This document shows positions 13,301-19,300 of a stretch of 64,000 bases of DNA, piece after piece. Position 1 is the first letter of the stretch. Each line of letters starts with the position of its first letter. A program made the position numbers and the translations under genes. The notes beneath the pieces were generated by a model. That model saw only the letters and a list, made by a program, of their open reading frames with translations, made no database searches and was not told where the DNA came from. This DNA is from Sclerodactyla briareus (Eukaryota; Echinodermata; Holothuroidea; Dendrochirotida; Sclerodactylidae): positions 186,001-250,000 of the forward strand of contig JAODTK010005761.1 of NCBI GenBank assembly GCA_026419785.1. The letters are read 5' to 3'.

Positions 13301-16300
13301 TTTTATGGGGCTTCCACACAGTATCATTCAAACAATGACTCCACATTGGTTTTTCCCCATGTGTGGTTGAGCTACAGCCCCATTGGTGTGCTCTTGTTAC
13401 TCTTCGCTTCAACTGTAACCTAATGTTATTGTGCAGTTTTTCTCTTCCAAACGCTAAGAAACAAAACCTATCCCACAATCATGGCATTTGAGGGTGTGAC
13501 ATAAGTGCTCTTGTTAACTGATCACCATCGTATTCTCTTACCCCACCCCATCTCTCAACAGATCAGACGACAGAACCATCTTGTCATTGCCAGTGTTCAG
13601 CTGCCCAAAGACGATGTTCAGCTGGATGCATCAACTATGACAACGAGAAAGGAGGTAAACTGATGCCTGTTGTATTCTGTTTTGAGGGAGGACATCCGGG
13701 TTAGTGTGGTGGTCTGATGCGATGCTATTTTTCTTCTTATTTTTATTTCCACAAATATATCCAAGTACTTGGACTTGCACCACAACCATTGCATAAAACG
13801 ACCCTTAGTAAGTCATGCCCGGTATCCTGGTGGTAGGTATCTTATCCAAGATGAGTACATAAACACTCTCATTGTGTGAGTATATGAGGTGATCAGAAAA
13901 GGGGGGAACGATAAGCCATACATTCGCATCATCATCATTAGGGCTGCGACTTTCGGCTATTTTCAGACCCGGGTACCCAACCCAAATTTTGGGCGGGTAC
14001 CCGGGCACCCGAAAATTACCCGGCCGAAAATTGCGCAAATGCACGGTGTCCGCTACTCCGCTCCCAGCTCGTGCAATAATGAAAGATGCCTCCGCCAGGT
14101 CGATCAATACATCGTGGTATTAGTAGTACACCGTAGATTAACAGCGAGAATAATTTATGAATGAGTCGCTGAAACTACTGCAAACAATGTGTTGGGTGGC
14201 AGATCAGTGTGCGGTGAAAAGTTGACGGACGCAGGCCTCGACATTTCCGCTCGCCACTCGCAAAATGCGAGTTAAAATTATGCTGTGGCGACCAGTTTTG
14301 CCAGTTAAGTGATCGCCAGACTCGCAAGTGATCCAACTTGGTCCCCCAGCTATGGCGTACCGTAACCTAGCTATAATGAACTGCATGTAAAGTTGTGTGA
14401 TGCTCACTCACGCCGATGCTGTGCTCTACTTTCAAATATAGTCCTGTTCCTAGTTGGAACTTGAAACATGTGTTATGAAACTGCTCTTATAATATTCAGT
14501 GCGCTCCCGCCACTGATAATGTGCAGTGCACTACACAACAATACCTAGTTCAGCCACTGATTGATTTCGTACAGAGCGACGATGAAACTTTTCACCGCAT
14601 ACAGTTAATGTCAATGGGGTTTTTGCATTGGCCCTGTGATGAAGGATCAACTGAATTTATGCACGATCGGCGATAGAATGATACTGCCAATTTAATTTGC
14701 ATGAGCCTACAATTCTATGCATGAATGATCGTAATTAATCAGGTAATTGGTGGATAAAACAATTATATACGAAGGTTTAGCGATGATTGGCGGCATTTAC
14801 GGCCAGTTTTAGACTGTGACTCGCTTCGGTTTTCTCACTGAAATAATCACAGTTACGTTAGAGCTTACTGGTAATTGCACTAGCAAGGAGTGTTGTGCGG
14901 GCCAGCCAGCCGTGCGTACGTTATGGGAGTATTAAATGTATTTGTCTGATGTGCCACTGATATTTGGTCAGTCGATCCCGACAGTTAACATTTTTAGCTG
15001 TAGATGGAATCATGTCGAGCCTCCTCAACATTGGAGGTAAGAAAATTAATTTGGAGTGAAGAAAATGCATAATAGATATTTGTTCAATCGGAATCTTCTC
15101 ACGTGATGTTATTTTCGGGTATAGCGGATGTGTATTGTTCAAACCAGCGCGGAAGGTCCCGCCATGTTCGGGCGGGACTCGATTAACCAGGACTCGGTCG
15201 CAGCCCATCATCATACTAGTTTCAACTCTGACCATTATAGCAACCGTAGAAGGCACGATGAGACAACTTCTTCGTTTTGCGTATTGACAGTAAGGATGGA
15301 ATTATTGATATGTGGAGCGAATATAGGTAGATGGTACAAAACATAGTCATTTGGGCGGAGAATAGTCCATGCTTGCACATAATCCAAACACCACACTGTC
15401 TTTCCTTTCTTAGAATTCGGAGGATTTGCTCAAGGGAATGGGAAGATTGAGATTGAGATCAAAATTAATCACGAGGGAGAGGTCAACAGGGCCAGATACA
15501 TGCCACAGAACCCTGTCATCATAGCAACAAAGACCCCCTCCAGTGATGTGTTGGTCTTTGATTACACCAAAAACCCCTCTAAGCCAGGTGAGTTTATGGT
15601 GCCACAGAACTGTCATTAAAGCGACAGAGACCCCCTCCAGTGAGTGTTGGTCATTGGTTACACCAAAACACCCCTCTAAGCCAGGTGAGTTTATGGTGCC
15701 ACAGAACTTGTCATTGAAGCGACAGAGACCCCTTCCAATGATGTGTTGGTCTTTAATTACACCAAACACCCCTCTAAGCAGGTGAGTTTATGGTGCCACA
15801 GAACTTGTCATTAAAGCGACAGAGACCCCCTCCAGTGATGTGTTGGTCTTTGGTTACACCAAACACCCCTCTAGCCAGGTGAGTTTATGGGCCACAGAAC
15901 TTGTCATTAAAGCGACAGAGACCCCCTCCAGTGATGTGTTGGTCTTTGGTTAACCAAACACCCCTCTAAGCCAGGTTAGTTTATGGTGCCACAGAACCCT
16001 GTCATCATAGCAACAAAGACCCCCTCCAGTGATGTGCTTGTCTTTGATTACACCAAACACCCCTCTAAGCAGGTGAGTTTATGGTGCCACAGAACCCTGT
16101 CATCATAGCAACAATGACCCCCCTCCAGTGATGTGCTTGTCTTTGATTACACCAAACACCCCTCTAAGCCAGGTGAGTTTATGGTGCCACAGAACTTGTC
16201 ATTAAAGCGACAGAGACCCCCTCCAGTGATGTGTTGGTCATTGGTTACACCAAACACCCCTCTAAGCCAGGTGAGTTTATGGTGCCACAGAACTCTGTCA

Positions 16301-19300
16301 TCATAGCAAAAGACCACCCCCTATTGTGATGTGTTGGTCTTTGATGACACCAAACACCCATCTAAGCAGCGTGAGTTATGTGAAACAGGAATTGTCAGTT
16401 AAATAGCGACAGAGACCCCCTCCAGTGTTGTGTTGGTCTTTGGTTAAACCAAACACCCTTCTAAGCCAGGTGAGTGTATGTGCCACAGAACTTGTCATTG
16501 AAGCGACCAGAGACCCCTTCCAATGATGGTGTGGTCTTTAATTACAACAAACAACCCTATAAAGCAGGTGAGTTGGTGCAACCGAACTGTCATTAAAGCG
16601 ACAGAGAACCCCCTCCAGTGTTGTGTTGGTCTTTGGTTACACCAAACACCCCTCTAAGCCAGGTTAGTTTATTGGCCAAGGAACCCGTAATCATAGGCCA
16701 ACAAAGACCCCTCCGTGATTGTGCTTGTCTTTGATGACACCAAACACCCCTCTAAGCCAGGTTGATGAGTTTATGGTGCCACAGAACCGTCATCATAGCA
16801 ACATGACCCCCCTCCAGTGATGTGCTGATCTTTGATTACACCAAACCCCCCTCTAAGCCAGGTGAGTTTATGGTGCACAGAACTTGTCATTAAAGCGACA
16901 GAAGACCCCCTCCAGTGCTGTGTTGGTAATTGTTACAACAACCCACCCCTCTAAGCCGTGAGTTTATGTGCCACAAACTTGTCATTGAAGCGACAGAGAC
17001 CCCTCAAGTGATGTGTTGGTCATTGGTTACACCAAAAAAAACACCCCCTAGCCAGGGGTGAGTTTATGGGCCACAGAACTTGTCATTAAAGCGACAGAGA
17101 CCCCCCAGTTGATGTGTTGGTCTTTGGTTAAACCAAACACTCCTCTAAGTCAGTTAGTTTTGGTGCCCACAGAACCTGTTCAATCATGAGCAACAAAGAC
17201 CCCCTCCAGTGATGTGATTGTCTCTTGATTCTACAAACACCTCTCTAAGGCAAGGGAGTTTTATGGTGCACAGAAGTGTCATTAAAGCAACAGAGACCCC
17301 CTCCAGTGATGGTTGGTCTTGGTACCCAAAAACCCCTCGAAGCCAGGTTAGTTTATGGGCCAAAGAACCCTGTCATCATAGCAAACAAACCCCCTACAGT
17401 AGGTTGCTGTCTTTGATTTTTTTTAAAAAAAACCCCCCCCCCCCCCCCCCAAAAACCAAACACCCCTCTAAGCCAGGTGAGTTTATGGTGCCACAGAACC
17501 CGTCATCATCGAAACAATGGACCCCCCGCCAGTGATGTGTGATCTTGATTACACCAAAAACCCCTCTAAGCCAGGTGAGTTTATGGCGCCACAGAACTGT
17601 CATTAAAGCGACAGAGACCCCCTCCAGTGATGTGTGGTCTTTGGTTACACAAAACACTCCTCTAAGCAGGTTAGTTTAGGGTGCCACAGAACCCTGTCAT
17701 AATAGCAACAAAGACCCCCTCCAGTGATTGCTTGTCTTTGATTACACCAAACACCCCTCTAAGCCATGGAGTTTATGGTTGCCACAGAAACCTGTATCAT
17801 AGCAATAAGACCCCCTCCAGTGATGTGCTGATCTTTGATTACACCAAACATCCCTCTAAGCCAGGGTTTTTAGTTTATGGTGCCACAGAACCTGTAACAT
17901 AGCAAACAAAGAACCCCCCTCCAGTAGTGATGTGCTGGTCTTTGATTACACCAAAAACCCCTCTAAGCCAGGTGAGTTTATGTGCACAGAACTTGTCATT
18001 AAAGCGACCCGAGACCCCTCCAGTGATGTGTTGGTCTTGGTTACACCAGACCACCCTTCTAAGCCAGGTGAAGGGAGTTATGGTGCCACGAACCCTGTCA
18101 TCATAGCAACCAAAGACCCCCCTTGGTGAGGTTGTTGGTCATTGATTACACCAAACACCTCTCTAAGCCAAGGTAGTTATGGTGCCACAGAACTTCTGCA
18201 TCATAGCAAAAAAGACCCCCCTCTTGTGAGTGTTGGTCTTTGATTACACCAAAAACCCCTCTAAGCCAGGTGAGTTTATGGCGCCACAGAACTCTGTCAT
18301 AATAGCAACGAAGGACCCCCTCTTGTGATGTGTTGGGTCTTTGTACACCAAACACCCCTCAAAGCCAGGTGAGTTTATGGTTGCCACAGAACTTGTCATT
18401 ATAGCAAGAGTTTGAAAAAGAGAGGTGGCGAAGCCGCCCCTTACAGATTCTCACCAATTGAATTTTATAATATTACAACATATGATAAATCTCATTATCT
18501 TGTACACGTGTTTTAGGGTTTTCCAAGAGCATACATTTCATTGAGCTGGGGCACTACCAATGCTTCACAGTGATTTGTTAATTCTTTCATTTCGGGCGTC
18601 CAGATGCCGTGGTGAATGTGTAACCGGATATCAGACTGAGGGGACACCAGAAGGAAGGGTACGGTCTCTCCTGAACCCGACCAACAGTGGACATCTCCTC
18701 AGTGCATCAGATGATCATGTAAAGCAGTTTTGCGCTAGGGTCTCAGAATCGGGGGGAGGAATTTCACCCCCATCCAAAAAAATTTTGGGGGGGATTTCAG
18801 ATTTTGGGGGGAGGGATTGTGGAGTATCACCAACATCAGCCAAACCGTCAATGTTCCTTCATTTCCACAGACTGTTACAAAATTGGCGGATTTAATTTTC
18901 TCGCATTGTTGTGCTACAGCCCATCAAAGCCTCACTGTGGTAGTGGCCAGAGTAGGTCATGCTGGTGACCACGATGTAACTAGCAGTGGTAACAGGACAA
19001 AGTCAAAGTAGTAAAAGCGAGGAGATCTCACAAAGTCACATAGTAGTACTAGTACTACACATGCAAATGATTGCAACTGCCAAGCCTTTGTACGGGTTTT
19101 CCAAAAAGGGAATGATTGAGCGCTCTAGTATGCCCGTAAGGGGATGAGCTGATATGATGAGCTGATGGTTCATGATCACTCGATGGATGAGCACCTGCTT
19201 CTTTAGTGCTTAATAATTATCTTGTGTATCCATCTACCCAATAATGGTTTCTCAGCACCATGCCATTATTTGGCTCCTTTAATCTGTGGAGAGATGATAG

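Follow-up and report, generated by a model that had tools for sequence, protein, structure and literature searches.

What becomes of a conserved gene when the end of one of its coding exons, splice donor included, is repeated over and over directly behind the intact copy? A 64,000-nucleotide stretch of DNA from the holothuroid Sclerodactyla briareus (the window; C3004:186001-250000 in an assembly of 319 Mb and 3171 contigs) raises this question at RBBP4, where one exon is followed by a long tandem array built from its own 3′ end. We think it likely that this array belongs with the exon-boundary minisatellites known in lancelets as 'mirages', and that it is spliced out from the first donor.

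By wrap-around alignment the array spans 15501-18410 and comprises 29 full copies followed by a partial one of 29 nt, in good agreement with a preliminary description of this DNA that had given 15490..18416 and about 29 copies. Tandem Repeats Finder also reported a long array of 97-99 bp units, divided among overlapping rows. The unit of ~98 bp consists of the final 87 nt of the exon (15501-15587) and 12 intron nt, GTGAGTTTATGG, so that the proposed composition (an exon end of ~87 bp and ~12 bp of intron) was matched by the alignment, as was the proposed position directly downstream of the true donor: copy 1 is the exon end itself, still in place, and its donor is the gene's own. When the exon end was compared with the following 500 nt, the best score was 173 against a maximum of 30 in 200 shuffles, and a repeat arising by chance is therefore excluded. 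The array occupies 2823 of the 3016 bp (94%) of the intron and stops mid-unit, so that native intron sequence beyond the donor is not visible. No strong DNA hairpin was found within the array unit (z -0.49).

The exon translates unbroken as RBBP4: its best PDB match carries that name (E 9.1e-33), while RBBP7 chains reach E 6e-31 at best. It is one of 11 RBBP4 exons found in order, in line with the gene named beforehand. Its earlier designation as exon 5 stands if the numbering includes a very short initial exon, which was not found in our gene mapping. In the assembly, where match counts are lower bounds, a 200-bp array probe gave 14 matches, all within the RBBP4 array, and a dispersed satellite was rejected on this ground. 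The right flank of the array (18405-18720) was found once, and no second haplotype of the array was seen in this one genome with the array probe and the right flank.

We counted 15 instances of the exact donor motif CAGGTGAGT in the window, against 0.48 predicted by shuffles, and each lies inside the array. Every copy had been said to carry a donor-like sequence; as assembled, 15 of the 29 copies have the exact motif and 4/29 have CAGGTTAGT, while in the other 10/29 the donor is weaker or lost, according to a scoring table that was not fitted. Among copies 1-8, which are cleanly assembled, the donor is exact in seven of eight. Readthrough past the true donor meets a stop after ~30 nt, at least 65 nt ahead of any later junction, and because this TAA lies in copy 2, splicing from a later donor would yield a stop-containing exon. 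A stop well ahead of an exon junction usually leads to nonsense-mediated decay, by which later-donor transcripts would be destroyed. Use of the first donor would remove the whole array with the intron, since the array sits downstream of that donor, and would leave the RBBP4 message intact.

The RBBP4 array is accompanied by others of similar design. Scanning 250 kb of C3004 for donor triples (CAGGTRAG three times at a spacing of 60-160) returned two sites, the RBBP4 array and C3004:169.6 kb, and in the same 250 kb only 1 of 60 scrambled motifs gave any triple. Over the whole assembly, triples numbered 48 hits (13 contigs) against 21 for the reversed pattern at 20-50 spacing, and 76 hits (17 contigs) against 39 at 80-110 spacing; these are counts of hits, which are non-independent within an array, and the reversed control was also counted in hits, not loci. 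We then compared 150 nt of exon plus 10 intron nt with the next 500 nt, using 200 shuffles each, at nine donors picked for a visible exon end beside a donor array and not as a random sample. A donor-spanning repeat scoring above all 200 shuffles was present at seven of the nine: besides RBBP4, these were C3004:169.6 kb (score 40, shuffle maximum 28), C2492 (67, 26), C2509 (77, 27), C1968 (94, 28), C2358 (53, 35) and C3072 (56, 31). C3019 was borderline (29, 29) and C1986 negative (18, 34). Eight other RBBP4 donors served as controls and none was positive; at e2 the donor was spanned with a score of 23 against 26, and at e11 a score of 32 against 29 came from a repeat that did not span the donor. 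These controls exclude RBBP4 exon 10, whose donor was not placeable, and several of their donors are uncertain by 1-2 bases from noise. DNA was read at all 13 contig loci with 20-50 spacing, and the test covered seven of them; C1070, C1595, C2088, C2775, C2843 and C3001 fell outside it, with no exon end at the array start or a start beyond the DNA read, and the 80-110 spacing hits on C1816, C2045, C2247, C2260, C2454 and C2997 were left out of the reading.

At C3004:169611-169985, 32 kb upstream of the RBBP4 array, a 70-codon open frame ends at CATACAG/GTAAGG, and this exon-like end is followed by ~11 copies of a ~37-bp unit that shares it. On the minus strand of C2509:439801-441300 the exon encodes asparaginyl-tRNA synthetase (PDB chain 8tc7, E 1.5e-12), and its end, together with GTAAGAACAATAG, recurs in 48-bp units with eleven donors. 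The five remaining positive exons are predictions based on open frames and splice signals, the weakest being C3072, where the frame stays open for 21 codons at most. With six further donors of like design, the genome seems prone to arrays made of an exon end plus its donor. Separately, a donor-like array at C2088:152501-154200 has a unit containing GTTTGAATCCC, which resembles a tRNA B box.

The assembly is noisy, and this noise bears on two other explanations of the RBBP4 array. The mapped RBBP4 exons contain 37 frameshift events in 1214 nt; the array exon is free of them and all ten others have one or more, as might be expected if the locus were a decayed copy, a dead gene in which an array could grow freely. 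However, 305 of 363 residues between the indels are identical to human RBBP4, a search of the assembly with RBBP4 gave five matches, all at this locus, and thus reported no second one (again as lower bounds), and histone H4 shows similar damage. Six H4 matches were found, on contigs C1362 and C2362, and the four that were aligned contain 49 frameshift events in 1239 nt, the remaining two overlapping these. As H4 is also hit and the RBBP4 residues between indels are conserved, the best explanation of the frameshifts is long-read error from uncorrected reads rather than gene decay; a pseudogene was rejected, histone H4 being damaged alike, and we find a decayed copy barely credible. H4 residue 73 is Cys in three of the four aligned places (the fourth is frameshifted there), a residue known from echinoderms, which we treat as a lead only. 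The same noise could be read as a sign that the array is itself an assembly or read artefact and that the real genome has one or a few copies: rare events number 7 in the 782 bp of copies 1-8 and 232 in the 2099 bp of copies 9-29, including 33 insertions in copy 20, the switch from clean to noisy is abrupt at copy 9, and a homopolymer run lies near 17418-17455. Against this, the copies fall into two variant families with linked columns, 25 of the 29 being wholly of one type, which none of 10,000 column shuffles reached, and both families are already present within clean copies 1-8, which argues against computational duplication by the assembler. Moreover, a single contig joins the exon on the left to unique flank on the right, and comparable arrays exist at other genes. 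An artefact of this kind is very unlikely. The worry about one, voiced in the preliminary description, is fair where the bases of copies 9-29 and the exact count are concerned: neither the sequence past copy 8 nor the precise number of copies is safe to rely on.

The donors of the array might compete, as the preliminary description had it; an appreciable share of transcripts would then use later copies and be degraded through the stop, so that array length would tune RBBP4 output. There are 15 exact strong donors inside 2.9 kb, all later donors run into the stop, and in test systems that offer equally strong donors the intron-proximal site can be the one chosen. Later donors lengthen the exon, however, and exon definition disfavours longer exons. 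Lancelet mirages, too, are reported to cause no interference in regular splicing (PMC3087553), and appreciable competition is unlikely here. Because mirages are reported to be harmless in this respect, we regard the RBBP4 array as probably tolerated for the most part, with wasted transcripts at a low level at most. It is likewise improbable that 5′ splice sites in this genome are hot spots for array starts, with duplicate donors in many genes, and that the RBBP4 array acts as a length-dependent brake; if that were true, donors inside the array would divert part of the splicing to stop-containing transcripts, and array length would determine how much of a core chromatin protein is made.

An exon-boundary minisatellite would have started with a tandem duplication across the donor that took in 87 nt of exon end and 12 nt of intron, and would have grown to ~29 copies, probably through block duplication, with the two observed families arising along the way. 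The order of the families recurs in blocks (self-alignment, p 0.017), and a GTTAGT-type copy is followed by one A subtype in six of seven cases (p 0.0002), both tests having been chosen after looking; this order fits growth by block duplication without proving it. Several points weigh against our reading. There is noise throughout copies 9-29, and the count is perhaps off by a few. A fixed higher-order period was rejected, since even the best lag in a plain lag test, 7, fell short of significance (p 0.067). Homology confirms no more than two of the seven positive exons, those of RBBP4 and asparaginyl-tRNA synthetase; the exons at C3004:169.6 kb, C2358, C1968 and C2492 gave no Pfam or PDB match, and C3072 was in neither search. 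We infer the splicing of RBBP4 from DNA alone, and the likeness to lancelet mirages is one of design only.

With its near-identical strong donors behind one acceptor, the locus is a natural experiment on the spliceosome's choice between equal 5′ splice sites. If such arrays recur at several genes, one genome would supply a set of these tests, and would reveal how frequently duplication crosses an exon boundary, an event that has been proposed to give rise to new introns.

Table 1. Features of the RBBP4 locus and its exon-end array, in window coordinates.
Feature	Position	Strand	Remarks
RBBP4 gene body	8424..36042	+	11 exons found, in order
Exon whose end probably seeded the array (RBBP4)	15414..15587	+	57 full codons open; 0 frameshift events; PDB match
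Tandem array	15501..18410	+	units of 87 nt exon + 12 nt intron; 29 full copies + 29-nt partial
Clean copies 1-8	15501..16282	+	both variant families represented
Authentic splice donor GTGAGT	15588..15593	+	preceded by CAG at 15585-15587; ends intact RBBP4 frame
Intron with array	15588..18603	+	3016 bp; placed from RBBP4 exon positions
First in-frame stop (TAA) when the first donor is skipped	15617..15619	+	in copy 2; 65 nt before second donor at 15685
Noisy copies 9-29	16283..18381	+	T/A/C homopolymer run near 17418-17455
Next RBBP4 exon	18604..18720	+	two frameshift events

Other repeats were seen in the same gene and contig. The intron preceding the array exon carries a dispersed repeat (14800-15215) with at least 43 matches in the assembly, its own site included, among the 40 of 196 candidates that were scored, and another RBBP4 intron holds a 311-bp direct duplication of 1.9 copies at 29280-29869, away from exon ends. 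Two arrays of GGTCCCCCGTCTCATT-like units lie in opposite orientations at 61463-61648 and 61952-62211 of the window, and C3004:65398-67378 consists of 62 copies of the 32-bp unit GAGCAGCTCAGTCAGTAGAGCTCTCGTCTCCA, which resembles a tRNA A box. No Rfam family or tRNA was found in the window, and a Pfam search with four window open reading frames returned nothing informative.

The closest parallels to the RBBP4 array come from published tandem repeats at exon boundaries. Lancelet mirages, found in Adh3, the globins BflGb6 and BflGb9, TnC and PGBD5, are tandem repeats over an exon boundary that reportedly do not interfere with regular splicing and are unstable in length (PMC3087553, PMC3902484). 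The RBBP4 array has this design in common with them, in that its unit crosses the exon-intron boundary (87 nt + 12 nt) and many units keep splice signals (exact in 15/29); its ~98-bp unit and ~29 copies differ from lancelet units of 10-72 bp (Adh3) and 150-160 bp (globins), BflGb6 having 6 or 3 copies. By its notation, the human CBS variable number tandem repeat, c.1444_1467+7(16_21), also joins an exon end to the first intron bases, in 16-21 repeats, but its unit is 31 bp and its allele lengths are known in people (PMC2630376). Internal tandem repeats in human duplicated genes are likewise exon-intron boundary minisatellites, able to change splicing, although they occur in recent paralogues and average ~4 units of 30 bp, whereas RBBP4 was found once and has ~29 units (PMC2812944). 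No published minisatellite-type array in RBBP4 was listed in our search of the available literature. What is new here is the gene, the array length and an indication that donor-side arrays occur in several genes of a single genome. Finally, in intron gain under the Rogers model, as for potato RdRp and ATP2A1, exon sequence and splice signals are tandemly duplicated as they are here (PMC4974935); unlike that process, the RBBP4 array creates no intron and enlarges an existing one at a conserved junction.
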